Shown here: piece after piece, positions 46,980 to 61,748 of the stretch
How positions within the stretch are numbered: position 1 is the stretch's first letter
Layout of the letters: every line of letters begins with the position of its first letter
From: Cyclobacterium sp.
GTDB lineage: Bacteria > Bacteroidota > Bacteroidia > Cytophagales > Cyclobacteriaceae
Length of the DNA: 64,000 nt
Direction: 5' to 3'
Assembly: GCF_014762705.1 (NCBI RefSeq)
Contig: NZ_JABURL010000107.1
Location: forward strand, 1 to 64,000
Position numbers and translations under genes: made by a program
Notes under the pieces: generated by a model
Seen by the model: only the letters and a program-made list of their open reading frames with translations
Database searches by the model: none
Told to the model about the DNA's origin: nothing

Positions 46980-47010
46980 AACCCTGGCTTGTTTTTTATG
47001 AGCCGGGGTT
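46980..47010. terminator. Possible bidirectional terminator
   Basis: A 10-bp stem aaccctggct/agccggggtt (one G-T pair) with an 11-nt T-rich loop, between the protease gene and the convergent DUF2892 gene. Confidence 0.6.
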
Positions 47011-47218
47011 ACCCTTCCCTGTTTGTACAGGTTTTCATCCCAAATAAGGTATACAAGGGACAAAAACTAACCAGGCTGGTCAGCAGGAATATGGCGGCAA
47101 CCACCATTAAAACCGTACCCAGGGTGGCTGTTACGGCTCCTGTATAATACAAGTAAATGGCCACCAGCGCAATGATGGTTCTGACAACGCGATCGGCAGT
47201 ACCCATGTTCTTTTTCAT
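47009..47218 (-). CDS. DUF2892 family small membrane protein
   Basis: ATG 47218 (MKKNMGTADRVVRTIIAL) is the typical DUF2892 start; a longer frame upstream is not family-like. The 69-residue protein has two helices separated by TGAVTATLGT, and a C-terminal FCPLYTLFGMKTC with two cysteines. This is the YgaP-type inner membrane domain, often fused to or near rhodanese and sulfur-handling genes. It lies downstream of the hydrolase-OsmC gene on the same strand, and the 47-63 kb region is rich in redox genes. Confidence 0.9.
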   Translation of the reverse strand: MKKNMGTADRVVRTIIALVAIYLYYTGAVTATLGTVLMVVAAIFLLTSLVSFCPLYTLFGMKTCTNREG

Positions 47219-47385
47219 GACGATGTGTTTAAGTGAATAAATAACTTTACCAGGCCATAGATAATGGAAAGACAAAGGAGGCAGACCAGAATCAACCTTA
47301 ACAATTTTTTTATTAGCTAAATTTAGCGATTCACAGCATGATAAAAGGTGATAAGGGTCACCTTTGGAAATAAAATCCACTTATT

Positions 47386-48606
47386 TTAATTGGGATGATC
47401 TTTAAATCTGGTATCGATGATAATGTCTTCTTCTAAAGTCCGGTGTACCGGACATTTATTGGCTATTTCCAATAGCCTTTTTCGCTGGGTCTCATCCACA
47501 TCTCCGGTTATTTCCAGGCTTCGTGTAAAACGACTGACCTTGGCTTTTTTATCATCCACATTATCGCTATCCTTTCTGTGTACTTTGTCGTGGTCCAGGT
47601 AAACATTGATTTCTTCCAGACGCCACTTTTTACGTTGTGCATACATCTGTAGTGTCATGGCCGTACAGGTACCCAGGGCCGCCATCAATAGGTCATATGG
47701 CGTAGGGCCCAGATTATCACCCCCCACTTCTTCCGGTTCATCTGCCAGCAAGTGATGATAGCGGGTTTTTACTTCAGAGGTATACCCATTTCCTGCCAGA
47801 CGTACTTTCACTTCGTGTCCTTTGGTGTCATTTGGCTGAACCTTTGCCGGAATATATTTCTTGACCCAGGCACTGACCATTTCCCCAACATATTCACTGT
47901 CCGTGGTATCGGAAAGCAGATGGTCTGCTCCATCAAGGGAAATAAAGCTTTTGGGATGAAAGGCTTTTTCGTAAAGTTTGGCAGCATGATTGATAGCAAC
48001 AATGCTATCCTGGGGAGAATGCAGGATGAGAATGGGCTTCCTTAATTGGGAAAGGCAGGCCCTCAGGTCCTTTTGACGGAGATCCTGAATAAAAGATTGA
48101 TTGATAGCAAACCCTCTTCCGCCAATATTTACCCTGGATGTCCCTTTCTTTTCTATGGTATCCAGGTGGTCTTCGAACAGGTGAGAAATATGTTCCACAT
48201 CAGAGGGGCTGCCTATAGTAGCCAATGCTTTTATATCCGGCAGGGATTGGGCGGCATAAATGGCAGCTGCACCTCCAAAGGAGTGACCTATTAATAAGGA
48301 GGGGGCTTCGTATGCTGTAGCCAAGAAATTGGCAGCATCGATCAGGTCGCTGATATTGGATGACAAATCGGTATTTTCAAATTCTCCATCGCTGTTTCCC
48401 AAACCCGTAAAATCAAAACTCATCACCGCTACACCCATTTGCGATAGGGTGTTGCAGATGTTCTGAACAGCTTTCAGGTTTTTGCTACAGGTGAAGCAAT
48501 GGGCAAAGAGCGCATAAAATCGGGGAGGCTGATCCAGCGGATGATAGATAAAAGCAGCCAAATTGAATTCTTTCCTGTTCTTGAAAAATACTTTTTCGGT
48601 TTTCAT
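47386..48606 (-). CDS. Alpha/beta hydrolase-OsmC fusion protein
   Basis: The 406-residue protein joins an alpha/beta hydrolase (about 1-255) to an OsmC-like domain (about 275-406). The hydrolase has the nucleophile elbow GHSFGG with Ser109 and the late DGADHLL with the catalytic histidine. The OsmC part shows ALGTCTAMTLQMYAQRKKW and NKCPVHRTLEEDI, with the two redox cysteines that reduce organic peroxides. The fusion is a known architecture. It suggests a coupled removal of peroxidised lipids or esters. It is probably transcribed alone, from upstream of 48606. Confidence 0.94.
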   Translation of the reverse strand: MKTEKVFFKNRKEFNLAAFIYHPLDQPPRFYALFAHCFTCSKNLKAVQNICNTLSQMGVAVMSFDFTGLGNSDGEFENTDLSSNISDLIDAANFLATAYEAPSLLIGHSFGGAAAIYAAQSLPDIKALATIGSPSDVEHISHLFEDHLDTIEKKGTSRVNIGGRGFAINQSFIQDLRQKDLRACLSQLRKPILILHSPQDSIVAINHAAKLYEKAFHPKSFISLDGADHLLSDTTDSEYVGEMVSAWVKKYIPAKVQPNDTKGHEVKVRLAGNGYTSEVKTRYHHLLADEPEEVGGDNLGPTPYDLLMAALGTCTAMTLQMYAQRKKWRLEEINVYLDHDKVHRKDSDNVDDKKAKVSRFTRSLEITGDVDETQRKRLLEIANKCPVHRTLEEDIIIDTRFKDHPN

Positions 48607-49199: not shown

Positions 49200-49742
49200 T
49201 TAATTCAATGGGGCTGCTTCGGGAAAGTCAATTGGAACTTTTGTGACATTGTGCAGCATATTGGTAATCGCCTTTTCGCCAATGGCCACGATGGTATCTA
49301 CCAGATTTTCTTTATCATATCCGGCTTCAAAGAAATTTTCCAGAACAGCGTCATCTATTTTTCCGGCATTTTCCATGACCGATTTGGCGAGTTTTGCCAA
49401 GGCATCAAATTTTGGATTGAAGCTTGCTTTTCCCCTTCGGAGTTCCAGGATTTCTTCATCTGAAAACCCGTTCATCTTACCGATGGCTGTGTGGGCTGCC
49501 AGACAATAGGTGCAACCATTGATTTGACTGATCACCAGATTGACCACTTCTTTTTCCTTATTGTTCAGGCTGGTTTTGCCATTGGCGAAGGCGGTATATC
49601 TGGCCAGTGCGTTGTTTGAAAGGGCATAGGTGGCATAAATGTTAGGGACAAACCCCACGCCGCCTTCGATCTTTTCCAAAATGGCCTTATTTTCTTCGCT
49701 TACCGATGATTTAGTTGGTACGTCAAATTTAATGTTACGCAT
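49200..49742 (-). CDS. Carboxymuconolactone decarboxylase (AhpD-like) family protein
   Basis: The 180-residue protein has the CMD fold with the redox motif GCTYCLAAH: Cys77, Cys80 and His84. This is the AhpD-type arrangement, in which the cysteine pair is a disulfide reductant for peroxidases. The N-terminus opens KFDVPTKSSVSEENKAILEKIEG, and a second helical half ends ITNMLHNVTKVPID. It is the first gene of a two-gene minus-strand operon with a membrane protein. A paralogue is at 61176. Confidence 0.92.
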   Translation of the reverse strand: MRNIKFDVPTKSSVSEENKAILEKIEGGVGFVPNIYATYALSNNALARYTAFANGKTSLNNKEKEVVNLVISQINGCTYCLAAHTAIGKMNGFSDEEILELRRGKASFNPKFDALAKLAKSVMENAGKIDDAVLENFFEAGYDKENLVDTIVAIGEKAITNMLHNVTKVPIDFPEAAPLN

Positions 49743-49894: not shown

Positions 49895-50761
49895 TCATTG
49901 GCTAGCAGGTGTTTCCAGGCTGGAAACGAAACGGATGATTTCATCTACCATGGCTTCGCGTTCTGTAAAAGGGATCAGGTGTCCTTTATTTTCGAAGGTT
50001 TTTATTTCCAGCCAATTTTCGGGGATGTTGTTTTTGGAGAAGGCTACATTTCCATAAGGAACCAAACCATCCTCATCCCCATGTATATGGAGTATGGGTT
50101 TTTTGACCTGTTGCCAATCACCTATGAAAGTATTTAGCTCAGCTTCATGACTGTATTTCTCATCTGCCGCTACCCTTAGCGAACGGGGTGCCATCCAACG
50201 GGTACCTTTATAAAGAGCCAGTTTGCCAAACCACAGGTATTTTTCCTGTTCCGGATCAATGGCCGGGGAAATCATAATGGTTCCCTTCAACCAATCGGGG
50301 TTCTGAATGGCGATGTATCCCGAAATGGTGCCGCCAAAAGAATGTCCGATTGGTACGACATTTTTGTCTACCTGGGAGTAGGCGAGTATTTGTTGAATGG
50401 CTTCATATTGTTGGGGTATGGGCTGGTAATCGCCATAGTCGGAGTACCCGTAACCTGGCCGGTCCACTACCATGATGGAAAAGGCCTCCCTTAATCGCTC
50501 ATCTTTCAGGTAAGACAGAAAAGAAGAAGAGGAACCGGGTGCCCCATGGATAAATAATAACAGCGGGACAGTTGGATTTTCATTTTTATACCAGAGCCAC
50601 CTGAGTGTATCCAAAGGCGCATGGTAAATTTCGTACTCCAGTCCTTCTTTATTCATCCTTTGATATAGGGTTCTGTCACTTTCCCTAAAAGACAGGCAAC
50701 CTGAGCAGATGGCTGCAAAAAAAATAATATAGCTGATCAGAAGGATATTTTTATGCTTCAT
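49895..50761 (-). CDS. Alpha/beta hydrolase lipoprotein
   Basis: The 288-residue protein has a lipobox near FAAICSGC (Cys19 or Cys22) after a hydrophobic signal, so it is exported and lipidated. The hydrolase fold has the oxyanion HGAPGSSSS, the nucleophile elbow GHSFGG with Ser141, an acidic HGDEDGLVP and the catalytic histidine in FENKGHLIPF. The substrate is not known; esters or peptides are typical. It is alone on the minus strand between an AhpD-like gene and the OB-fold gene. Confidence 0.9.
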   Translation of the reverse strand: MKHKNILLISYIIFFAAICSGCLSFRESDRTLYQRMNKEGLEYEIYHAPLDTLRWLWYKNENPTVPLLLFIHGAPGSSSSFLSYLKDERLREAFSIMVVDRPGYGYSDYGDYQPIPQQYEAIQQILAYSQVDKNVVPIGHSFGGTISGYIAIQNPDWLKGTIMISPAIDPEQEKYLWFGKLALYKGTRWMAPRSLRVAADEKYSHEAELNTFIGDWQQVKKPILHIHGDEDGLVPYGNVAFSKNNIPENWLEIKTFENKGHLIPFTEREAMVDEIIRFVSSLETPASQ

Positions 50762-50904
50762 TATTGGTTTTTGTTATCATTAACGTGGTTTTAACCGTCC
50801 TGGTTTTTTATCCGTTTCGTTAGCTTTTTTTGATTATGCTCAACTTCTTCGTCAGGAAATAAGGGTATCCACGACTATTCTGGCGAAATAAACATACAGC
50901 AAAC

Positions 50905-51384
50905 ATGAAAAAAAACAAATGGCTTAAGCCAGTGCTCATTACTATTTCTGCCGCAGGCCTCATTGGTCTGGCAGTCGTAGCCTACCTGCTAAACATGCCC
51001 CATAGAGATGTACAATCCACAAAAACAGATTATGCCATTTCTGCAAAATTATTGGTGGACGAATTTCTCGCTGATGCAGAATTGGCCTATGAAAAATACC
51101 TTGATGAAGAAGGTGAATCAAAAGTACTAGAAGTAGAGGGGGAGATTTATGAGGTCAGTAAGGATTATAATGAGCAAACCGTGGTACTTCTTAAAGATCC
51201 CAATGAGTCCGCAGGTGTAAGCTGTACCTTCCTTCCTTCTGATAGAGAATTTGAGCAACTATTAAAGGTTGGTGCAAAGATAAAGGTCAAGGGAGTCATT
51301 CGGTCAGGAGCTAATTATGATGCCGACCTTGAAATGTATGAACATGTAATTTTTGAAAAGTGTGACCTGGTCACCAATGTATAA
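50905..51384 (+). CDS. OB-fold (tRNA_anti-like) membrane-anchored protein
   Basis: The 159-residue protein begins with a short basic segment and one hydrophobic helix (about 9-29), either a signal anchor or a signal peptide. The rest is an OB-fold domain like the tRNA_anti-like family, with LEVEGEIYEVSKDYNEQTVVLL and GAKIKVKGVIRSGANYD. Such small exported OB proteins are common in Bacteroidota beside YceI genes. Six bp downstream lies the start region of a YceI gene, so they are probably cotranscribed. Confidence 0.84.
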   Translation: MKKNKWLKPVLITISAAGLIGLAVVAYLLNMPHRDVQSTKTDYAISAKLLVDEFLADAELAYEKYLDEEGESKVLEVEGEIYEVSKDYNEQTVVLLKDPNESAGVSCTFLPSDREFEQLLKVGAKIKVKGVIRSGANYDADLEMYEHVIFEKCDLVTNV

Positions 51385-51417
51385 TTTATAATGAATAAAA
51401 TTAAAATGTTAACAATC

Positions 51418-51975
51418 ATGAAAACCAAATCAATTGTTTTAGTCGCTTCCCTCATAATGCTCATCTCGGCAGCATTTGTTTCTCCATTTGAAAAGTTGGT
51501 TAGCCAAAAAACCCATATCAGCTTTTTTTCCTCCACTCCGGTGGAAGATATTACTGCTGATAATTACAAAGCCACTAGCACCCTGGATACCTCCACAGGA
51601 GAACTGGTGTTTTCGGTTCCCATGCAAAGTTTTGAATTTGAAAAGGCTTTGATGCAAAAGCATTACAATGGGAAGGATTTTCTGGATACCAAATCTTTTC
51701 CTAAATCCAAATTTGTTGGCAAGATCAGCAATTTGGATCAGGTAGATTTTACCAGGGACGGTACCTACGTGGCCTTAGTCATTGGAGAAATGACGATTAA
51801 AGATGTCACCAATCCTATAGAAGAAAAAGGTACCATCATGGTGCAAGGTGGCAAGGTGGCTGCGGAAAGCACATTCGAGCTTACCCTTGCCGATTACGGC
51901 ATAAATTTCGAAAAGGGGAAACCTGCTTCCAACATTGCCAAAACCATTGAAATCACCTTTAAAGGAGAATATTAA
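51418..51975 (+). CDS. YceI family protein
   Basis: The ATG at 51418 (MKTKSIVLVASLIMLISAAF) gives a Sec signal peptide; two upstream in-frame ATGs (51391, 51406) add only a few residues. The 185-residue product has a YceI lipocalin-like barrel: SFFSSTPVEDITADNYK, GELVFSVPMQSFEFEKALMQ, and FPKSKFVGKISN, followed by MTIKDVTNPIE. YceI proteins bind polyprenoid lipids or amides in the periplasm. Its neighbours are an OB-fold protein upstream and an outer membrane protein downstream. Confidence 0.92.
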   Translation: MKTKSIVLVASLIMLISAAFVSPFEKLVSQKTHISFFSSTPVEDITADNYKATSTLDTSTGELVFSVPMQSFEFEKALMQKHYNGKDFLDTKSFPKSKFVGKISNLDQVDFTRDGTYVALVIGEMTIKDVTNPIEEKGTIMVQGGKVAAESTFELTLADYGINFEKGKPASNIAKTIEITFKGEY

Positions 51976-52004
51976 GATAAGGGTTAGTTGATGCTGGGGT
52001 TAGT

Positions 52005-52039
52005 AAAGTGCATGGGTGCCATGTGGTGCCCTGCACTTT
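52005..52039 (+). terminator. Hairpin after the YceI gene
   Basis: A stem of about 15 bp with one bulged base (outer arms aaagtgca/tgcacttt) and a 4-nt loop, about 30 bp after the YceI stop. It may end the OB-YceI transcript or separate it from the next operon. Confidence 0.65.
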
Positions 52040-52069
52040 CTTCCCGGCAAATCTGAGTTCTAAAAAGAC

Positions 52070-53065
52070 ATGAAGACTAAAATTGCCTGTTTGCTTTTAC
52101 TAATCACTTCCTCTCTTATGCAGGAGGCCTGGTGCCAGGCATGCTGTTCCGGTGGCGTTCCGGTAGGTGGGACCTTGGGTTTGGGAACTGCAGATCCAAA
52201 AGCAGTGCAATTTTTATTCACCTATGACCACAATGTGCTCCGGGATCTAATGGATGGTAATGCGCTTTTGTCAGATGACACACGTAGCCGGTTGACCCGG
52301 TCTTTTCTGATGGAGGTGAATTATGGCATCCATGGGCGCTTTGCCCTAACCTTGGTGCTGCCTTTTGTGAGGCAGGAAAGAAGCATCCGGGAGTACAACA
52401 ATCAAATTGGCTTTACACGGGCTCAGGGCTTGGGCGACATGGTCTTTTTGCTCAAATACCGAATGTTGAATCCACTGAAACACCCAAACAGGGAATGGCT
52501 GATAGGGGCCGGTCCAAAAATTCCCACCGGAAGAACAGATTTTAAAAACAACCAGGGCCTAACCATGGTCGCAGACATGCAACCGGGCTCCGGTTCACTT
52601 GATGGTATGTTTTGGTCCTTTTACCAACAGTCCAAATTTTTAACTCCTTCCATGAGTTTATTGGGTATCCTTACCTACAGGGCTTCGGGTAAGAACCGTA
52701 ATTATAACCAAACCCAGGTATACCAGTTTGGAAATGAATTTCAGGCCAATCTGGGAGTTAATTACAACCTGTTTGTGCACTGGCCAATGGATGTATTTGT
52801 ATTTGGCAGGTACAGGAGCCAGACAGTGGATTTGGTAGACGGAAATACCTTTCCGGGTTCCGGAGGGAAGTGGGTCTATCTGATTCCTGGTCTTGGTGTA
52901 CATTTTAATCCGGACCTGTCTTTACGGGCATGGGCGGATTTTCCTTTATACCGTTCATTGAATGGCTCGCAATTAACCACCTCCTATAAGTATTCCTTGT
53001 CTTTGTTTTTCAATATATCAAAGAAAAGCAAGGCACCTGTTTTTAATTTAAAATTGGATGAGTGA
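52070..53065 (+). CDS. Outer membrane beta-barrel protein with cysteine-rich N-terminus
   Basis: The 331-residue protein has a signal peptide (cleavage near EAWC, about residue 23) followed by CQACCSGGVPVGG, a cysteine-rich head suggestive of metal binding. The rest is a beta barrel with regular amphipathic strands (FALTLVLPFVRQERS, WLIGAGPKIPTGRTDF, VFGRYRSQTVDLVDG) of the transporter-like type. It overlaps the next gene by one base (TGATG), so it is translationally coupled to a DUF3179 protein. Its substrate is unknown; a link to metals is inferred from the cysteines only. Confidence 0.84.
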   Translation: MKTKIACLLLLITSSLMQEAWCQACCSGGVPVGGTLGLGTADPKAVQFLFTYDHNVLRDLMDGNALLSDDTRSRLTRSFLMEVNYGIHGRFALTLVLPFVRQERSIREYNNQIGFTRAQGLGDMVFLLKYRMLNPLKHPNREWLIGAGPKIPTGRTDFKNNQGLTMVADMQPGSGSLDGMFWSFYQQSKFLTPSMSLLGILTYRASGKNRNYNQTQVYQFGNEFQANLGVNYNLFVHWPMDVFVFGRYRSQTVDLVDGNTFPGSGGKWVYLIPGLGVHFNPDLSLRAWADFPLYRSLNGSQLTTSYKYSLSLFFNISKKSKAPVFNLKLDE

Positions 53066-54156
53066 TGAAAAAAACACATAATATTAGGATGATTCCCCTT
53101 CTTCTGGCATTATCAATCAGCTGTGGGGAGCCGGAAGGACCCGACTTTCGTCCCGGAGGCGGAGGCAGCAATACTTCAGGTGGCAGTCAAAACTGGCTTA
53201 TTCCTGAAAATGAAGTTTTTGATGGTGGCCCTGGAAAAGACGGTATACCTGCGTTAAACGAGCCCAACCTTGTGGCCGGATCTGAAATAGACTATCTGGA
53301 GGAAACAGATTTGGTATTGGGTTTTGCCGCAGAAGGGGAGGCAGTGGCTTATCCCCATAAAATATTGGATTGGCACGAAATCATCAACCATGAAGTGGGG
53401 GCAACCGCTCTTGCTGTGATTTATTGTCCACTAACCGGTACCGGAATTGGCTGGGACAGGAACATCTCCGCAGGTAAAACGACTTTTGGTGTTTCCGGGC
53501 TTTTGTACAATACCAATGTGATACCATACGATCGCCTGACAGACACCAATTGGTCTCAAATGCGCTTTGAAGCCGTAAATGGAGAGTTGATAGGGGAAGA
53601 GCCCGAAGTGATTTCCCTGATAGAAACCAGCTGGGCTACCTGGAAGGCAATGTATCCCGAGACAAAGGTGGTTTCCCGGGAAACGGGACACAACCGAAAT
53701 TACGCCAATTACCCCTACGGAGATTACAAATCCAATCACAGCAGTCTACTGTTTCCTGTCAATAAAACCGATGACCGGCTCCAGGCCAAAAAAAGAGTTC
53801 TGGGAATAATGAATGGAGAAAATTTGAAAGTTTACCCCATTGAAAATTTTGCTGAGCAGACCCGGTTGGTCTATGACACCTTTGAGGAGGAACCAGTTGC
53901 CGTAATTGGGAATAGCGCAGCCAATATCCTGGTTGCCCTCAATCGCAGGCTTTCTGACGGTACAGTACTTGATTTTACCTTGGGTGCATCGTCCAATTCC
54001 TGGATACTGGTAGATCAGGAAGGAAACCAGTGGAATTTATTTGGAGAGGCAATTTCAGGACCCCGGGAAGGGGAGGTACTGGGGAAGTTTCCGCAAATGA
54101 TGGGTTTTTGGTTTTCCTGGCCGCCATTTTTTGAAAATATAGCGGTATATGAATAA
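53065..54156 (+). CDS. DUF3179 domain lipoprotein
   Basis: ATG 53065 overlaps the previous stop as TGATG; a GTG one codon upstream is possible. The 363-residue protein has a lipobox SISC (Cys20) and a glycine/serine-rich linker. The DUF3179 domain (about 55-363) contains GGPGKDGIPALNEP, AVAYPHKILDWHEIINHEVG, IYCPLTGTGIGWDR and FGVSGLLYNTNVIPYDR, and the usual end MMGFWFSWPPFFENIAVYE. The CPLTGT segment is the family signature. Function is unknown. It overlaps the glutamate-synthase-like gene by 8 bp. Confidence 0.94.
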   Translation: MKKTHNIRMIPLLLALSISCGEPEGPDFRPGGGGSNTSGGSQNWLIPENEVFDGGPGKDGIPALNEPNLVAGSEIDYLEETDLVLGFAAEGEAVAYPHKILDWHEIINHEVGATALAVIYCPLTGTGIGWDRNISAGKTTFGVSGLLYNTNVIPYDRLTDTNWSQMRFEAVNGELIGEEPEVISLIETSWATWKAMYPETKVVSRETGHNRNYANYPYGDYKSNHSSLLFPVNKTDDRLQAKKRVLGIMNGENLKVYPIENFAEQTRLVYDTFEEEPVAVIGNSAANILVALNRRLSDGTVLDFTLGASSNSWILVDQEGNQWNLFGEAISGPREGEVLGKFPQMMGFWFSWPPFFENIAVYE

Positions 54157-55729
54157 GCCTGAAAATAAATATATCTGGATTCCTGGTATGTTAATTGGTC
54201 TTCAAATGCTTTTCGCTATGGCGGGCTGGTATGGATTAATCAGTTGGTTTTGGGTGGTACCCCTACTGCTTGTACTAACAATAGCTGTATTAGACTTGAG
54301 TCAAAAAAAGCATACTGTTAGAAGGAATTTTCCGGTAATTGGAAATTTTCGGTATTTTTTTGAAACTATCAGACCTGAAATCATGCAATATTTTATTGAA
54401 TCGGATGTTGACGGCGCTCCGATCAATCGCATGTTTCGGTCTCTGGTATATCAAAGGTCTAAAAATCAATTGGATACCACCCCATTCGGAACAAAAATGG
54501 ATGTGTACAAAGTTGGTTACGAATGGATGAACCATGCAATATTCAACTCGGCTGTTGCCACTTCTGAGATCCCACCACGGGTGATCATTGGGGGCAGAGA
54601 TTGCCGGCAGCCCTATTCCTCCAGCCTTTTGAATATATCTGCGATGAGTTTTGGTGCTTTAAGTAAAAATGCTGTTTTGGCCATGAATAAAGGAGCCAAA
54701 ATAGGAGGCTTTGCACAAAATACCGGTGAGGGGGGCATTAGCGATTACCATTTGGCAAAAGGAGGAGATTTAATTTGGCAAATTGGAACGGGATATTTTG
54801 GCTGCCGAAAGAAGGATGGTTCCTTTTGTGAGACGACCTTTAGATCGGCAGCCAGCTTACCCTCTGTCAAAATGGTTGAAATTAAGCTTTCTCAGGGGGC
54901 AAAACCAGGCCACGGAGGGATGTTGCCAGCACTTAAAAATACTCCGGAAGTGGCCAGATACAGGCATCTGGAGCCATTTAAGGATGTCCATTCCCCACCT
55001 TTCCATTCCGAATTTTCTGATGCAGCCGCTCTCCTGCGTTTCATCCTGAAATTGCGTAGTTTGAGTGCAGGTAAACCTGTTGGATTTAAGTTTTGTGTCT
55101 CAGGAGAGGATGACTTTCGCCTGCTATGTGAGGAAATGATCAGAACTGGAATTTATCCTGATTTTATTACCGTAGATGGTGGAGAAGGGGGAACGGGGGC
55201 CGCTCCTGTTGAGTTCAGCAATTCTTTAGGCATGCCTTTGCGCGATGGTTTAGCCCTTGTCCGCGATATGCTCCTGGCTTATGGTATCAGAAAAGAGCTT
55301 AAACTCATGGCCTCTGGTAAAATAATTACCGGTTTCCACATGGCAAGAATACTGGCCCTGGGCGCAGATGCTTGTTACTCAGCCAGGGCCATGATGATGG
55401 CGACGGGTTGTATACAAGCACTTCGTTGCAATTCAAATACCTGTCCTGTGGGAGTGGCCACACAGCAGGAAAGGTTGGTGAGAGGATTGGACGTTGCCGA
55501 TAAGTCAAAGAGGGTGGCCAATTACCATGAAAAAACCATTGCTAGTTTAATGGAACTTTCCAATGCAGCGGGTTTGTCATCACCTTTGGACATTGAGCGC
55601 CGGCACATCCACCGCAGAATTAGTACGACACGCGTTAAAACCTATGCCCAGATTTATCCTTTTCGGTTGAAAGAACGCCTTGATAGCAAAAAAGTCAATA
55701 GGGAATTAAACTCTACAGATGTAGGATAG
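54149..55729 (+). CDS. FMN-binding glutamate synthase family protein
   Basis: The 526-residue protein has two N-terminal helices (about 8-28 and 31-48) and then the FMN-binding synthase domain of glutamate synthase: SSSLLNISAMSFGALSKNAV, NTGEGGISDYH, DLIWQIGTGYFGCR, TVDGGEGGTGAAPVEF, and NSNTCPVGVATQ. It lacks the amidotransferase domain and the four-cysteine iron-sulfur signature. The CNSNTCPVGVATQ segment carries cysteines at the position of the 3Fe-4S ligands of the full enzyme, though the complete set is not clear. The membrane anchor and coupling to DUF3179 set it apart from GltB. Its true substrate is open. Confidence 0.9.
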   Translation: MNKPENKYIWIPGMLIGLQMLFAMAGWYGLISWFWVVPLLLVLTIAVLDLSQKKHTVRRNFPVIGNFRYFFETIRPEIMQYFIESDVDGAPINRMFRSLVYQRSKNQLDTTPFGTKMDVYKVGYEWMNHAIFNSAVATSEIPPRVIIGGRDCRQPYSSSLLNISAMSFGALSKNAVLAMNKGAKIGGFAQNTGEGGISDYHLAKGGDLIWQIGTGYFGCRKKDGSFCETTFRSAASLPSVKMVEIKLSQGAKPGHGGMLPALKNTPEVARYRHLEPFKDVHSPPFHSEFSDAAALLRFILKLRSLSAGKPVGFKFCVSGEDDFRLLCEEMIRTGIYPDFITVDGGEGGTGAAPVEFSNSLGMPLRDGLALVRDMLLAYGIRKELKLMASGKIITGFHMARILALGADACYSARAMMMATGCIQALRCNSNTCPVGVATQQERLVRGLDVADKSKRVANYHEKTIASLMELSNAAGLSSPLDIERRHIHRRISTTRVKTYAQIYPFRLKERLDSKKVNRELNSTDVG

Positions 55730-55792
55730 GCCTGAGAACGGACAAATTATCCTTTTCATCCTTTTTAGGATTTTATTTAATCCAATACGGTG

Positions 55793-56500
55793 CTATATAG
55801 TGTAAAAAAATGGACCGTATGTCTTTTTTGCTTTCAGGTCAACATGGATCATGGAAGGGGTAAACAGGGAATTCCGGATTTGGGTTATGCTAACGGTTTG
55901 CATGCCTTCATCCCTGCGCATTAATATATCATAAGTTGAATCTTTGCCGTGACAACTGCTGTGGAAACCCATCATGTCAAAATCCGGATGGGCGGACTTT
56001 TCCATGATCCATTGATAAAACCATTTTTCTCTTTTAATGCGTTGTTCCTCGGTATACAAGGTTGGAGAGGACCAAATCTTCGGTTTGTCCTTGCTAAGTG
56101 TGTTTAGAAAGGTAGAATTTCCATCCCACTTCAACTCAAAAAAAGAACGGGCTTTGATCATCAGCAGCGTAAACGGTTCTACTTGGTGAAAATCAAAACT
56201 TTCAATAAATTTTTCGAAATCCTTGTACTCCAATGATTCCAGCAACATTTTTCCCCTGCTGACTACCTGTGTAGATTTTTTTTCGTGTTTTTCAAAAGCA
56301 CCATTTAGCAAGCAGGCAACCGTTTCATCCATGCAGGCGGCGATCCAGGTGCCTCCTGAGCGGAGATCTCTGGGATACATAATCTTCTTTCCGGCATGCC
56401 GATAGGACAGTGGGGGAAAAGTCTCTCTTCTGAAGGTTTCATCTCTGCTCGAAGTAAGGACATAACCATGCGGCAGGGGAATATAGGATACAGTACACAC
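55793..56500 (-). CDS. NRDE family protein, second copy
   Basis: The 235-residue protein begins MCTVSYIPLPHGYVLTSSRDE, with the conserved N-terminal Met-Cys and an SSRDE in place of the NRDE motif, then LRSGGTWIAACMDETVACLLNGAF. The central part differs from the first copy at 11731. As in that copy, Cys2 would be exposed after methionine removal. It is a single minus-strand gene between two plus-strand genes. Confidence 0.88.
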   Translation of the reverse strand: MCTVSYIPLPHGYVLTSSRDETFRRETFPPLSYRHAGKKIMYPRDLRSGGTWIAACMDETVACLLNGAFEKHEKKSTQVVSRGKMLLESLEYKDFEKFIESFDFHQVEPFTLLMIKARSFFELKWDGNSTFLNTLSKDKPKIWSSPTLYTEEQRIKREKWFYQWIMEKSAHPDFDMMGFHSSCHGKDSTYDILMRRDEGMQTVSITQIRNSLFTPSMIHVDLKAKKTYGPFFYTI

Positions 56501-56618
56501 GTAGGACTCGGCTTTTTATTATTGCACTTGATTCAAAATTATTAGTCGTTTATGCTGCTATTTCCTGACATTCCCAATTGGTTTTTATTGAAAAGTTCAG
56601 TTTATTGCAAGTATACAA

Positions 56619-57146
56619 ATGGTATGTTTTATGGGTATGCGATGGACAATACTGCTACTGCTTATGACTGGCACAAACCTAATGGCACAAGATTATTTTA
56701 ACAAGCAATATGCCGGTGTTTGGCAGCGTAACCTGGAATATTCCAAAGCCGTGGCGGAAGCCATGCCGGAGGCGAGCTACGATTTCAGCCCTTCGGAAGG
56801 AGCCATGTCTTTTCAGGGACAATGGCTTCACGTAGTGGATAATATCAGCATGTTGACCTCGCACATCACTGGTGAACGGAAAACATTTTACCGCAAAGAG
56901 GATGCGACCGGCTTAAATAAAGCAGATGTTCTGGACATCCTGAATCGGGCCAATGCCTACGTGCTGGATTTGATTCAAAATGGCTCCGATATCCTGTTAA
57001 ATGAGGAGATTGAATTTGGCGGCGTTGCCATGACCAAGGAGAACATTTTTTACCTGCTGCGCGATCACCAGGCCCATCATCGTGCCCAATGCCTGGTATA
57101 CCTTCGCATGGAAGGAATATCGGCTCCCGGATATGTTGGCTGGTAG
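56619..57146 (+). CDS. Exported DinB-family protein
   Basis: The 175-residue protein has a Sec signal peptide (MRWTILLLLMTGTNLMAQ, cleavage near LMAQ) and a DinB four-helix bundle. The start may be ATG 56619, 56631 or 56637. The likely metal ligands are a histidine in GQWLHVVDNISML and the RDHQAHHR motif near residue 150. DinB-type proteins act as thiol-dependent transferases or metalloenzymes, usually in the cytoplasm, so an exported form is less usual. It lies 82 bp upstream of an exported rhodanese, and both may share a promoter. Confidence 0.86.
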   Translation: MVCFMGMRWTILLLLMTGTNLMAQDYFNKQYAGVWQRNLEYSKAVAEAMPEASYDFSPSEGAMSFQGQWLHVVDNISMLTSHITGERKTFYRKEDATGLNKADVLDILNRANAYVLDLIQNGSDILLNEEIEFGGVAMTKENIFYLLRDHQAHHRAQCLVYLRMEGISAPGYVGW

Positions 57147-57228: not shown

Positions 57229-57729
57229 ATGAAATCTTTCTTTCGAAAAATGCTCTTATTGTCCGCATGGACTTTTATCCTTGTTCCTGCTTTCTCCCAA
57301 AGCCTGCCTTTCAGAACCTTATTAAACACTACCTACGAAAAGGATTTTCCCCTGGCTTATCCCGAACAAAAAGACCTTTTGGGGGAGGCCGTGATTTTGG
57401 ACACCCGTGAGAAAGAAGAGTTTTCCGTCAGTCATCTTGAGGATGCCCGCTGGGTAGGTTATGAGACTTTTTCCCTGCATTCGGTTTCGGAAATTCCCAA
57501 AGATGAAACCATTGTCGTTTATTGCTCCATCGGTGCCCGCAGTCAGGAAATCGGCAAAAAATTAAAAGCGGCCGGTTACCAAAATGTATACAACCTTTAT
57601 GGGGGCATTTTTCATTGGGTCAACGAGGGTAATCCTGTCTATTCTCTCGATGCTGAACGCACAGAACGGGTACACACCTACAATAAAATGTGGGGCATGT
57701 GGGTAAATAAAGGAGAAAAGGTACACTGA
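57229..57729 (+). CDS. Exported rhodanese-like protein
   Basis: The 166-residue protein has a signal peptide (cleavage near FSQS, about residue 24) and a single rhodanese domain (about 50-155). The active-site loop is CSIGARS with Cys99, and YNLYGGIFHWVNEGNPV closes the fold. Rhodanese domains carry persulfide sulfur. The six-residue loop CSIGAR fits sulfurtransferases, not arsenate or phosphatase relatives. It ends beside the convergent MerA-like reductase. Confidence 0.9.
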   Translation: MKSFFRKMLLLSAWTFILVPAFSQSLPFRTLLNTTYEKDFPLAYPEQKDLLGEAVILDTREKEEFSVSHLEDARWVGYETFSLHSVSEIPKDETIVVYCSIGARSQEIGKKLKAAGYQNVYNLYGGIFHWVNEGNPVYSLDAERTERVHTYNKMWGMWVNKGEKVH

Positions 57730-57752: not shown

Positions 57753-59120
57753 TTATATTGGTTCTAAGCTTTCCAGCAAGGTGGGGATCAATTCGCCTAC
57801 GGTGGGGTGAGGGAATACCCCATCACGAATTACGGTGTAGGAGAGTCCGCCATACATCACATTGAGAATACTACTGATAATTTCATCTCCTCCTACTCCC
57901 AGAACGGCAGCTCCAAGAATTTTCTCCGTTTTTTTATCTACAATTACCCGGATGAACCCATCCGTTTCTCCCTTCTCTTTTGCCCGGGCGATACGTTTCA
58001 TATCGCGGTATCCGACCAAAACCTCCAGGTTTTGATCTTTTGCCTCTTTTAGCGTGATGCCGGCACGGCCCAATGGAGGATCTACAAATAAACCATAGGT
58101 AAGTATACGGTCACTTACTTTTCGGTTTCCCTGTTCAAACAGGTTGGAATTAATGATTTCAAAATCGTTGTAGGCGGTATGTGTAAATGCACCCTTCCCG
58201 TTACAATCGCCCAGTGCAAAAATGCCGGAGATATTGGTTTCCAAAGTATCATTAACCTGAATATATCCTCTACCATCGGTCTTGATGCCTGCTTTTCCCA
58301 GATCAAGTTCAGCTGTATTGGGGATTCTACCTACCGCTACCAATACATGCGAACCGCGAATTTGTGGTGCCCCCTTTTCACAGGATACCGAAACAAGCAA
58401 TTGGCCATCTTTTTCTTCCTGCGCATCAATGCAGGTTGCATTTAGCCGAAATACGACGCCCTCTCGCTCCATTACCCGCTGTATTTCCCTGGAGACATCT
58501 TTATCCTCTCTGGAAATGATTCTGTCCGATTTTTCTATAATGGTCACTTTGCTTCCAAAGCGCCTGAACATCTGACCAAATTCCAGGCCTATATAGCTTC
58601 CGCCGATGATGATTAAATGCTCCGGTAGCTGTTCTAACTCAAGGATACTTTGATTTGTTAGAAAATTGACTTTTTTCAATCCCTCAGGGACAAGGGGTCT
58701 GGCACCGACATTGATATAAATTTTTTCTGCAGACAAAACTTTACCATTCACCTCTACGGTATGTGAGTCAGTAAACCTGGCAGCACCTTTGAAAAGGGTT
58801 ATATTTTCATTCTTTTCTATTCCGGCTGCCATTCCATCGACTGATTTTTTGATCAGTTCGTCTTTACGTTTTTTTACCTGGCTTAGATTTATCCGGGTAC
58901 CTTCCGGAATGTGTACGCCCAGCATTTCCCCATTGTGAGCATCAAACATTCTGCGTGCACTTGCCACGTATGTTTTGGTAGGTGTACAGCCTACATTCAG
59001 GCAGGTACCTCCCAAATGCTCCTTTTCAATGAAAGCCACTTTTTTACCTTTTGCTGCCATTTTAAAAGCCAGAGGGGTGCCCGCTTGTCCGGATCCGATA
59101 ATGATTGCGTCAAATTTCAT
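57753..59120 (-). CDS. Mercuric-reductase-like FAD disulfide oxidoreductase
   Basis: ATG 59120 (MKFDAIIIGSGQAG) is chosen over an extended start at 59144. The 455-residue flavoprotein has an FAD motif, the redox pair Cys40 and Cys45 in GGTCLNVGCTPTK, an NADPH motif GGSYIGLEFGQMFRRFG and the C-terminal FPHPTVGELIPTLL with the active-site histidine. The N-terminal HMA domain and the C-terminal cysteine pair that bind Hg(II) in MerA are absent, so mercury reduction is unlikely. It probably reduces a small disulfide or persulfide. It converges with the rhodanese gene, whose stop is 23 bp away. Confidence 0.92.
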   Translation of the reverse strand: MKFDAIIIGSGQAGTPLAFKMAAKGKKVAFIEKEHLGGTCLNVGCTPTKTYVASARRMFDAHNGEMLGVHIPEGTRINLSQVKKRKDELIKKSVDGMAAGIEKNENITLFKGAARFTDSHTVEVNGKVLSAEKIYINVGARPLVPEGLKKVNFLTNQSILELEQLPEHLIIIGGSYIGLEFGQMFRRFGSKVTIIEKSDRIISREDKDVSREIQRVMEREGVVFRLNATCIDAQEEKDGQLLVSVSCEKGAPQIRGSHVLVAVGRIPNTAELDLGKAGIKTDGRGYIQVNDTLETNISGIFALGDCNGKGAFTHTAYNDFEIINSNLFEQGNRKVSDRILTYGLFVDPPLGRAGITLKEAKDQNLEVLVGYRDMKRIARAKEKGETDGFIRVIVDKKTEKILGAAVLGVGGDEIISSILNVMYGGLSYTVIRDGVFPHPTVGELIPTLLESLEPI

Positions 59121-59219
59121 GGTCTTACGTTTTAGTTTTTTCAATTATTTTTTTAGAAACAAAGTGCTAAGAAAAATGTAGAATGATAAAGCGAAATAGG
59201 TTCTTCATTGGTTTTTTTG

Positions 59220-59489
59220 TCAATCTTTATGGACATAGACCGATGTTTTAGGATGATAGGCAAACCAGAAGTTCATCACGGTCGGGATAATATTTTTACC
59301 GGCATCCCTGATTTCGGCACTTTGGCTTTCTGCATCAAAACTAATAGACAGCATTTGTCCCTGAAATACATCTTTTATTTCATCCAATGGTATCGAAACC
59401 CGGGAAAGGTCAAATCCCTTTTTCTCCTGAGGAAAAGCAATCGTGGCCAGGGCAAATAGGAATAAGAAAAACAAGCTGCTTTTACCCAT
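59220..59489 (-). pseudogene. Short exported protein, probable DUF3179 remnant
   Basis: ATG 59489 gives MGKSSLFFLFLFALATIAFPQ, a signal peptide; a start at 59549 would add 20 basic residues. The mature part is only about 68 residues. It opens KKGFDLSRVSIPLDEI, as the start of DUF3179 proteins of the long type, and ends MNFWFAYHPKTSVY, which resembles the end of the same family, usually FWFAWYAFHP with four more residues. The large middle of the domain (about 200 residues) is absent. I read this as an internally deleted gene; the frame across the join is open, so a small protein could still be made. Confidence 0.6.
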
Positions 59490-59545
59490 TTTTTTCAATT
59501 GTACCCTTTTAAAAGATTTATGGAGGGTTTTTAAACTAATCTCTT

Positions 59546-59623
59546 TCATACGCCGGGCACCAAGGTGTAAAACATAAACAAACCGATTCCTACAAAAAGC
59601 AGGGAAATAGCCATGAATTGCAT
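59546..59623 (-). other. Tiny hydrophobic reading frame upstream of the DUF3179-like remnant
   Basis: A 25-codon frame begins at ATG 59623 (second ATG 59614) and encodes MAISLLFVGIGLFMFYTLVP, a single transmembrane helix, ending at TGA that overlaps the ATG at 59549 (ATGA). It may be a genuine tiny protein or the end of a lost gene. No further homology is recognised. Confidence 0.3.
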
Positions 59624-59925
59624 GAGGAATCAGTTTCGTTACCATCTTAATAGGATGTGCTTGAGTAGTCGTAAAAAAACCAATTCCTGACACTATGCTG
59701 CTGTAAATTCGGATGTTTTTCCTAACTGGCACAGCAACGTAATTTCGAAATGTCTTTTCCAAAAGTGATGACAGCTAGTTTGAAGTAGAACTTTTGCAAA
59801 AAAGTATCAAATTAGATTACCATTCCTTGTCAGGTTCGGGTGAATGATTCGACTAGTAAGGAAGGTAGGTCCAAACACACCTACCCGCAAACAATTCTTA
59901 TCAATAATTAAAACCTTTGTTCATT

Positions 59926-60441
59926 ATGAAAATTGCCAAATTATTACTTGTGGCGTTACCACTCGTCTTTCTTTCCGCTTATTCAACCCTTTCCCATTCA
60001 GAACCTGGGTCATTTAATTATATTGAAAAGGCACCTGATTTTGAAATAACCACCATAGATGGTGAGGAGATAAGTCTAAAGAAATCCCTAAAAGAAGAAA
60101 AGCCTACAGTGATTTACCTTACCGCTTCCTGGTGCCCAATGTGTGCCAAAAACTGGCCCAGTCTTTCAGAGGTTTATCCGGAGTTTAAAGATAAACTGAA
60201 CTTCGTTGCCGTTAGCATTGACCCCACAGACGATGAAGCGGTAATGAGGAAGCTGGTTAAAGAGAAAAATTTAACTTTTCCGGTAGCTGCCGGGAATCCC
60301 GAGCTAATGGTCAAACTTGGAGCCAAAGCCCAGGCTACCACCGTTGGAATAGATAAAAACGGTAATATCCAATTTATGGAGCGTGCTGTAATGAGTGCAT
60401 CCGAGTTCCGAAAAGTTTTTCAATCCCTGATAGACGCATAG
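59926..60441 (+). CDS. Exported TlpA/redoxin-type thiol-disulfide protein
   Basis: ATG 59926 (MKIAKLLLVALPLVFLSAY) is the start; the TTG three codons before is unlikely. The 171-residue protein has a signal peptide, then a thioredoxin fold with APDFEITTIDGEEISLK, the redox motif WCPMC (Cys70, Cys73) and a cis-proline region ATTVGIDKNG. It works in the periplasm as a reductant, for example in cytochrome c maturation or peroxide defence. A CcdA-type electron carrier follows 1 bp later, which would feed it electrons across the membrane. Confidence 0.93.
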   Translation: MKIAKLLLVALPLVFLSAYSTLSHSEPGSFNYIEKAPDFEITTIDGEEISLKKSLKEEKPTVIYLTASWCPMCAKNWPSLSEVYPEFKDKLNFVAVSIDPTDDEAVMRKLVKEKNLTFPVAAGNPELMVKLGAKAQATTVGIDKNGNIQFMERAVMSASEFRKVFQSLIDA

Positions 60442-60442
60442 A

Positions 60443-61111
60443 ATGGATTTTGTCTCTTTTTCATTTTTGCAAGGAATCATGGCATTTTTAGCTCCTTGTG
60501 CTGTGGCCCTGCTTCCGGGGTATATTATGGCTTATATATCCCGGAATGCAGGGATCGAGCGTTCCATGGTCCCCAAATTGCTCAGAGGACTCAAATTAGC
60601 TTTCTTCAGTATTTCAGGAATTCTGATCGTTTATGCTTTGGCTGGAACGCTAATTATTTTAGCAAGCCAGTTGCTCAAAGAAAACATGAAATTCATCACA
60701 GTGGGGATGGGAGGATTATTGGTATTTCTTGGCCTGCTCATGCTATTTGGGAAAAGCATTTCAATAAACATAAATTTTTCGGAACCCTCTACTAAAAGAG
60801 AGACCTCAGAAGCGTTCTTTTTTGGAATTGCCTATGCCATAGGGGCACTTGGATGTTTATTCCCTTTGTTTTTGGTGGTGGCTACCCAAGCCCTTGCTGC
60901 AGAAAACGTTTTGTTGGGAGGAAGTTACCTGCTGGCCTATTTTGTGGGTTTTGCCTTAATGATGGTATTAGCTATCGTATTGGCCACCTTTGCGCAAGAT
61001 TTGTTGAGAAAATACTTGCGGAAAATACTTCCCTACATGGAGCGGGCAGCAGGTTTTGTTTTAATCCTGTCCGGAATTTATATCATTTATTATCAGTTGG
61101 TGTTGTTTTAA
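60443..61111 (+). CDS. CcdA/DsbD-type cytochrome c biogenesis membrane protein
   Basis: The 222-residue protein has six helices and the two conserved cysteines of the family: APCAVALLPGY near residue 18 and LGCLFPLFLV near residue 138. It moves electrons from cytoplasmic thioredoxin to periplasmic partners. The start lies 1 bp after the redoxin stop, so the two form a matched pair. A strong terminator follows. Confidence 0.94.
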   Translation: MDFVSFSFLQGIMAFLAPCAVALLPGYIMAYISRNAGIERSMVPKLLRGLKLAFFSISGILIVYALAGTLIILASQLLKENMKFITVGMGGLLVFLGLLMLFGKSISININFSEPSTKRETSEAFFFGIAYAIGALGCLFPLFLVVATQALAAENVLLGGSYLLAYFVGFALMMVLAIVLATFAQDLLRKYLRKILPYMERAAGFVLILSGIYIIYYQLVLF

Positions 61112-61175: not shown

Positions 61176-61748
61176 TTAATCAGGCCATTTTCTTTCTGAA
61201 AATACCTCATCCAGCTCCGTATGGAAAATATGGTTGGAGTAATTGCTGATGGTTTTTACCGCAATGGCCAATATGATTTCCAAAATATGTTTTTCTTCGT
61301 ACCCTGCAGCCGTAAATTCAGCCACATCGGCCTTCGTCGGATAGCCTCTTTTCTCCAGCATTATTTTAGTGAAGGTAGACAGGGCGCTCATTTTTGGATC
61401 TTCAATCTCCTCTTGATTTCTTAGCGCATTGGTCAGTTCTTTGGGTAATTTAGACATGTTGTCAGCGATGTAACTATGTACCGAAGCGCAGTAATCACAG
61501 CCATTGTAAATGCTAATGGTCAAAAAGACAACTTCTTGTTCCACGGGGCTCAAACCGCTGTTTTTACGGAAATGATCGTAACCTACGGCATAGGTTTCCA
61601 TCAATCCTGGAGAATTGACCATGTTGGCATACATATTAGGGACCATGCCCATTTGCTTCTTTGGCTTTTCAAGTAAGGGCTTTTGGGCTTCGTTTGCTTC
61701 CTCAAGGCTTACTGGTTTTAACTTGGTTTGAAAATCGGTTTTGCTCAT
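61176..61748 (-). CDS. Carboxymuconolactone decarboxylase (AhpD-like) family protein, second copy
   Basis: The 190-residue protein has the same layout as the copy at 49200. It opens LEEANEAQKPLLEKPKKQMG and carries the redox motif GCDYCASVH: Cys84, Cys87 and His91. The second half ends ISNYSNHIFHTELDEVF. These proteins support peroxidases by disulfide exchange. It is alone on the minus strand, about 110 bp from a broken lipoprotein gene. Confidence 0.92.
   Translation of the reverse strand: MSKTDFQTKLKPVSLEEANEAQKPLLEKPKKQMGMVPNMYANMVNSPGLMETYAVGYDHFRKNSGLSPVEQEVVFLTISIYNGCDYCASVHSYIADNMSKLPKELTNALRNQEEIEDPKMSALSTFTKIMLEKRGYPTKADVAEFTAAGYEEKHILEIILAIAVKTISNYSNHIFHTELDEVFSERKWPD

Follow-up and report, generated by a model that had tools for sequence, protein, structure and literature searches.

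A conserved outer membrane channel–DUF3179 gene pair within a candidate ECF sigma factor island of Cyclobacterium

Extracytoplasmic function (ECF) sigma factors with zinc anti-sigma factors, outer membrane channels of the COG4313 type and proteins of the DUF3179 family are the closest described counterparts of the system analyzed here, a gene pair encoding an outer membrane channel and a DUF3179 lipoprotein in a 64,000-nucleotide stretch of Cyclobacterium sp. DNA (contig NZ_JABURL010000107.1, positions 1 to 64,000; hereafter the window). In ChrR/RsrA-type anti-sigmas, zinc is bound by the sigma-binding domain (PMC6852236), release of this zinc on oxidation has a precedent in RsrA (PMC6852236; PMC4960319), and in Haemophilus influenzae the sigma factor RpoE2, with its 67-residue anti-sigma, links hypochlorous acid to envelope-repair genes (PMC7907618). 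COG4313 channels carry a lumen-occluding N-terminal segment and have been implicated in the uptake of hydrophobic molecules (PMC4493636). DUF3179 is listed as a UxxC/T selenoprotein family (PMC9312934, PMC13188914), and the literature naming the family tabulates a DUF3179 gene with cytochromes in Idiomarina; the passages found on DUF3179 give no function for it. In Bacteroidota, the sigma motifs reported for Flavobacterium psychrophilum include one of ECF type with a CGT -10 box, tied to type IX secretion system genes (PMC9723704), and our literature searches found no description of an oxidant-type ECF regulon in this phylum.

In the window, five genes lie on the + strand in one operon order, preceded by a promoter-like motif:

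50852..50877, + strand: promoter-like motif of ECF type, TCAGG-N15-CGACTA, located 27 bp ahead of the OB gene start
50905..51384, + strand: OB-fold protein (tRNA_anti-like, PF12869), which has a single hydrophobic segment at its N-terminus (Pfam; homolog within the flanks of 7 of 80 loci)
51391..51975, + strand: YceI-like protein (PF04264; Pfam; 9 of 80 loci)
52070..53065, + strand: outer membrane barrel of COG4313/PF13557 type, with A-C-C-S-G-G after the signal peptide (the channel)
53065..54156, + strand: DUF3179 lipoprotein (PF11376, Pfam E 9.7e-84), a tandem duplication with H104 and C121 (YCPLTG)
54149..55729, + strand: membrane-anchored glutamate-synthase-type flavin mononucleotide (FMN) protein (PF01645, Pfam)

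The gene identities, positions and overlaps of 1 to 8 bases proposed in the initial annotation of this region were borne out by Pfam matches and coordinates, as were the OB-fold and YceI genes upstream. The ATG of DUF3179 at 53065 shares one base with the stop codon of the barrel gene (TGATG), an overlap that grows to four bases should translation begin at GTG 53062, and the DUF3179 and FMN genes overlap by eight bases. As read from the sequence, the DUF3179 protein begins with a lipobox-like segment and the FMN protein with a long hydrophobic stretch.

Gene neighbourhoods were compared across 80 loci from named public genomes, the best of 235 that were confirmed for the same DUF3179 subfamily (best-segment identity 44-55%), with open reading frames (ORFs) taken uncurated from the first possible start codon; one alignment (A2) combined the window with 77 of these loci, omitting L060, L080 and L093. 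A channel homolog was found directly upstream of DUF3179 on the same strand in 67 of the 80 loci. Of the remaining 13, two (L062 and L075) are truncated by a contig end, and in L054 the pair lies one gene farther along. According to the first-start ORF calls, 29 of 68 pairs overlap, including 23 with a four-base overlap. In the order as a whole (194 genomes), some DUF3179 is encoded in 46 genomes and the channel, counted at E<=1e-10, in only four, in all of which it adjoins DUF3179. The own genome has one DUF3179 match above the family cut-off, and in a survey of the phylum DUF3179 was present in 31 of 198 sampled genomes and, among 14 control genomes, in Haloferax. The channel and DUF3179 are a conserved two-gene unit, and their pairing is far above chance. 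As an observation on one such pair, the channel gene of L057 (6968-7786) encodes a protein 87% identical to the window channel over 271 residues, while its DUF3179 neighbour is only 51% identical, a mismatch that could reflect recombination.

The FMN gene, which the initial annotation had joined to the other two in a single coupled set, adjoins DUF3179 in none of the 80 loci, and in 12 neighbourhoods of closer FMN homologs (52-61% identity) the channel, DUF3179 and OB genes were adjacent in none, although in L224 a weak homolog of the channel (29%) occurs at a distance of five genes. A distant FMN homolog (31%) lies about 3 kb from DUF3179 in one of the 80 loci (L115), and more distant Glu_synthase-type proteins (about 31% identity, 313-339 residues) occur in island-like contexts in L115, L281 and L285. 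A conserved three-gene operon was therefore rejected: the neighbourhood of DUF3179 is strongly non-random with respect to the channel, and the FMN protein is, as far as searched, a neighbour of DUF3179 in its own genome only.

The channel matches PF13557 with 46.8 bits against a cut-off of 22, and its AlphaFold2 model (predicted local distance difference test, pLDDT, 89.5; below 50 at residues 18-25) is matched by Foldseek to the COG4313 structure 4rl8 (TMt 0.80, E 6.5e-11) and also to FapF. Like the described COG4313/Phenol_MetA_deg channels (Pput2725, SphA; FapF fold), it combines the Pfam match and the fold match with an N-terminal segment before the first strand, and it differs from them in a conserved double-Cys head and a fixed DUF3179 partner. 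Of the cysteine-rich head originally ascribed to the barrel, what stands is this short stretch, A-C-C-S-G-G, just past the signal peptide; it does not form a separate domain. Every channel N-terminus that was captured, 62 of 62, has a pair of Cys inside a three-residue span close to the cleavage site: among 68 unselected channels, 52 show CC.GG and 10 a variant double-Cys head, the N-terminus not being captured in the other six. Alignment A3 (the window plus 62 of 69 channel ORFs) was assembled by a Cys motif, and the invariance of the Cys in that alignment is due to selection. A conserved Gln ahead of the double Cys fits the Bacteroidetes Q-rule (PMC5837995).

The DUF3179 protein matches PF11376 with 281.7 bits (cut-off 27) over profile positions 1-290 of 292, and was modelled with a pLDDT of 88.5 and a predicted template modelling score of 0.85. 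Its two halves are homologous (HHalign probability 99.6, E 8.9e-25), indicating a tandem internal duplication. Conservation was assessed in a diverse family set of 60 rows, four of which are the same gene fetched twice, so that counts refer to 56 distinct rows, at least one of them a misaligned partial. His104 is present in all 54 distinct rows that cover the position and Cys121 in 53 of the 56, and the third residue after Cys121 is Cys in 37 rows and Thr or Ser in 17; in the window, this C/UxxC/T motif reads YCPLTG (residues 120-125, CxxT). His98 is not conserved across the family. We infer that the selenocysteine (Sec) position of the literature corresponds to Cys121. The window protein thus resembles the PF11376 family at large in its match above the cut-off and in having CxxT at the near-invariant Cys, and its subfamily differs in being mostly CxxT with Cys, in being a lipoprotein and in being paired with a channel. 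In L005 (1051-2178; genome G132), a member of the same family is circularly permuted in one open frame, next to a channel gene of the same type; the permutation fits a DUF3179 fold in which the two termini are near each other.

Foldseek gave no match to the DUF3179 model at E<=0.001, and the top high-probability matches were Rieske-type structures (8hn2, 3gce and 5cxm; TMt 0.49-0.58, E 0.0055-0.096). Membership of the Rieske family was rejected because the CxH...CxxH motif is absent, which leaves a resemblance of fold only, and a Rieske profile test also failed (HHalign probability 0.2-7 against 24 Rieske segments of relatives). A profile search for sequence relatives in the PDB returned none up to E 10, and a phmmer match to YebR (E 0.9) was taken as chance.

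Lipoproteins were predicted with a simple pattern of our own, passed by 51 of 88 DUF3179 ORFs and by 67 other ORFs. Acidic residues follow the lipid-bearing Cys in 29 of the 51 DUF3179 lipoproteins versus 13 of the 67 lipoproteins predicted from other ORFs of these loci (p 4e-5), and such residues are described as a feature of surface lipoproteins (PMC5080379); the CGEPEG of the window protein departs from the K-(D/E)2 form given in the same source. Because DUF3179 lipoproteins are enriched in residues of this type, the placing of the three proteins across outer membrane, periplasm and inner membrane is uncertain.

The OB, YceI, channel, DUF3179 and TANGO2 genes belong to an island of roughly 28 kb that extends beyond the end of the window. 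All ORFs of the window and of the following 20 kb were searched for in the 80 loci. Of 35 island genes (44.4-75 kb), 17 recurred near DUF3179 in at least three loci, as opposed to none of 49 control genes outside; leaving out the barrel and DUF3179 themselves, 15 of 33 did so. The OB gene was also sought in 50 genomes, the own one and those of the 49 loci with longer flanks. Strong OB homologs (E up to 1.1e-30) gave 20 matches in 17 of the 49 locus genomes, and seven of the 20 fall inside the 8-kb flanks of DUF3179, for which the chance estimate from genome sizes is about 0.07. OB-YceI genes also lie near a sigma/anti-sigma pair in L270, L271, L273, L282, L283 and L288; in the first five they either lie on a different contig from DUF3179 or are separated from it by some tens of kb, and L288 is the contig of L068, with OB-YceI just outside the 8-kb flank of that locus.

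At the end of the island, on the same contig (73919-74900), an ECF sigma factor of 205 aa, consisting of Sigma70 regions 2 and 4 only, is encoded by a gene overlapping a short ORF of the HxxxCxxC type (HVKMCVVC), an anti-sigma candidate assigned by motif and position, with no Pfam match. The overlap of a sigma gene with a short HxxxCxxC gene is as in the ECF/zinc anti-sigma systems of the RsrA/ChrR type and H. influenzae RpoE2-HrsE, in the latter of which RpoE2 controls envelope-oxidant genes (PMC7907618); the present system differs from these in its phylum, in its targets and in having a motif of its own, TCAGG-N14-16-CGWCTA. In the 84 kb formed by the window and the 20 kb beyond, this motif occurs six times versus 0.15 expected, always in the island: before the OB, TANGO2, TlpA-like, DUF4833 and FMN reductase genes, the last of these sites being inside the anti-sigma ORF, and inside the ORF of a DUF3179 remnant. 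A literature search on DUF4833 found nothing. The 80 loci contain 28 matches versus 1.4 expected, 22 of which start 20-200 bp ahead of a gene start, and 300 letter-permuted motifs gave means of 1.7 in total and 0.14 before genes (maxima 14 and 3). The spacing is 14 in 20 of these matches, 15 in seven and 16 in one. The genes so marked include the barrel-DUF3179 pair and genes for OB, CMD, DUF547, peroxiredoxin, LysE, rhodanese, thioredoxin-like and DinB proteins. A shared motif is well supported for the own genome and for several others.

The other features of the island within the window are:

47009..47380, - strand: YgaP-like transmembrane protein
47386..48606, - strand: hydrolase-OsmC fusion
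49200..49742, - strand: CMD (AhpD-like) protein (5 of 80 loci)
49895..50761, - strand: alpha/beta hydrolase, a skeleton gene of the island
55793..56500, - strand: TANGO2-like protein, island member (5 of 80 loci)
56543..56568, - strand: promoter-like motif before TANGO2
56619..57146, + strand: DinB-family protein
57229..57729, + strand: rhodanese-domain protein
57753..59144, - strand: pyridine nucleotide-disulphide oxidoreductase (4 of 80 loci)
59220..59762, - strand: probable remnant of a second DUF3179 gene with its core missing (ORF as called; BLAST)
59666..59690, - strand: promoter-like motif in the remnant ORF, ahead of later in-frame ATGs
59830..59855, + strand: promoter-like motif before the TlpA-like/DsbD-like pair
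59917..60441, + strand: TlpA/ResA-like thiol-disulfide protein
60443..61111, + strand: DsbD_2-type membrane protein
61176..61748, - strand: second CMD protein (7 of 80 loci)

The locus sets matched by the two CMD genes overlap. In the remnant ORF, in-frame ATGs lower down lie at 59645, 59549 and 59489; BLAST aligned 51 aa at 49% identity with the C-terminal end of a second DUF3179 in L105 and gave a weaker N-terminal match to L123, there was no Pfam or family-profile match, and the core with the Cys motif is absent. On the same contig beyond the window end are genes for DUF547, DinB, DUF4833, ATP-grasp-like, type III polyketide synthase-like, second YceI and NADPH-FMN-reductase proteins, the polyketide synthase-like gene (L134 6537-7622; contig 70537-71622) lying inside the island beside the second YceI gene. 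Among 31 gene clusters recurring in at least five loci, ten representatives were scanned against Pfam, two of them without a match; of the rest, several matched window genes and others were named by eye (peroxiredoxin, G6PD, YjeF, TonB receptor etc.). Many island and motif-target genes belong to thiol or peroxide families (CMD, OsmC, rhodanese, TlpA-like, flavoprotein disulfide reductase, DsrE and thioredoxin), and the island, which is well supported, looks like an envelope oxidative-stress programme.

We favour, with guarded confidence, the interpretation that the island is a thiol-oxidant regulon under an ECF sigma factor and a zinc anti-sigma, in which DUF3179 would act as a Cys-based redox lipoprotein working with the COG4313-like channel; the inducer, the match of sigma factor to motif and the chemistry are inferred. 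By analogy with RsrA and RpoE2 the island should answer an oxidant or electrophile, which would release the sigma factor from its anti-sigma; the sigma factor would then read the TCAGG-N14-16-CGWCTA motif and switch on the operon from OB to FMN. DUF3179 would be a thiol oxidoreductase at the outer membrane, based on Cys (on Sec in some relatives, as a selenol enzyme), and would deliver redox equivalents, or a substrate that reacts with thiols, to the channel or through it. The Cys-Cys N-terminus of the channel would lie where COG4313 channels carry their lumen-occluding segment. The FMN protein is a local recruit that may serve this response as a reductase. A stronger version seems to us unlikely: DUF3179 as a Cys/Sec redox lipoprotein exposed at the surface and seated on a COG4313-like channel, with the Cys-Cys N-terminal plug of the channel as the redox switch, the two together making up a thiol-gated outer membrane valve that in several lineages is fired by an ECF/zinc-anti-sigma oxidant response of Bacteroidota.

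Several observations count against the proposed regulon. The limits of the island were fixed only after its genes had been seen, and the motif was recognised by eye in a set of upstream sequences to which some of the counted sites belong, among them two window sites and the OB sites of L105 and L118. Eight of the 28 matches in the 80 loci are inside some called ORF, and four are inside ORFs for sigma factors, where they could result from conserved coding. Genome-wide, the motif is not commoner than its reversed control (11 matches, six in the island and the other five within ORFs, versus 16), and in 14 other whole genomes the counts are small, in most with no clear excess over that control; the case for the motif therefore rests on position, not on number. 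A strict motif within 250 bp before the channel-DUF3179 operon was found for only six of 68 pairs (seven when relaxed; reversed control one of 68), so that the pair is a candidate target only in part of the lineages and in most genomes may be regulated otherwise. Within the protein, two DUF3179 rows lack Cys at position 121.

The genus provides a further argument of this kind. The island sigma factor is present in 10 of 12 genus genomes including the own (66-98% in the nine others), and the nine of 11 congeners that keep it all lack DUF3179, as do the other two; the pair is thus not essential to the response. In the four of these nine congeners whose island regions were compared, the island is largely syntenic, without the genes from OB to TANGO2, and the alignments skip window positions 50309-56559 (G437), 50034-56560 (G434), 50684-56571 (G435) and 50603-57029 (G440). 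The pair sits in an optional cassette carrying its own motif copies, with a G+C content (43.7%) no different from that of the window (43.0%). Since in G434 and G437 the alignment ends inside the hydrolase gene, a deletion in the congeners is no less likely than a gain in the own genome. The left ends differ between these two genomes and both alignments resume at window position 56560-56561, so that the cassette site, at the hydrolase-DinB junction, may be a deletion hot spot.

The redox part of the initial suggestion of redox or metal handling is supported by the island and the two-gene core, though not by a coupling of three genes, and metal handling stays as a rival. The Cys-Cys head and the His and Cys of DUF3179 would in that case be ligands of a soft metal such as copper, with the pair serving as a module for export or sequestration. 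Upstream of the pair, five of the 80 loci (L097, L101, L109, L111 and L128) encode an HMA protein, a small protein containing Cys and, as named by eye, a TonB receptor, and L093 has HMA and MerT-like genes (by eye) nearby. Short zinc anti-sigma/ECF pairs in Proteobacteria have also been linked to copper. However, no metal family was recognised among 24 Pfam-scanned island proteins of the contig (six of them without any match), Cys121 and not His98 is the residue conserved family-wide, and replacement by Sec would fit redox chemistry better than metal storage; we regard metal handling as improbable. More doubtful still is that the channel serves, like other COG4313 proteins, in uptake or release of a hydrophobic compound, with DUF3179 as a substrate-binding or substrate-modifying lipoprotein of no redox role. 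The fold matches to 4rl8 and FapF and the hydrophobic-molecule uptake reported for COG4313 proteins (PMC4493636) speak for it, but catabolic genes of that sort were not recognised in the 31 clusters, most of which were named by eye, and plain uptake leaves the double Cys in every captured channel N-terminus unexplained.

That channel, DUF3179 and FMN protein form one pathway across outer membrane, periplasm and inner membrane, with the FMN protein as electron donor, appears very unlikely. The eight-base DUF3179/FMN overlap in the own genome and the Glu_synthase-type proteins in the island-like contexts of L115, L281 and L285 could be read that way, but they stand against the absence of FMN next to DUF3179 in the 80 loci and the 12 closer FMN homologs without adjacent partners, L224 included.

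For a widespread protein family, the analysis identifies a partner, a build from internal repeats and a putative active site, to which several lineages add a candidate regulon marked by a defined motif. The role of DUF3179 thereby becomes testable, and the analysis predicts an oxidant-type ECF regulon in Bacteroidota.

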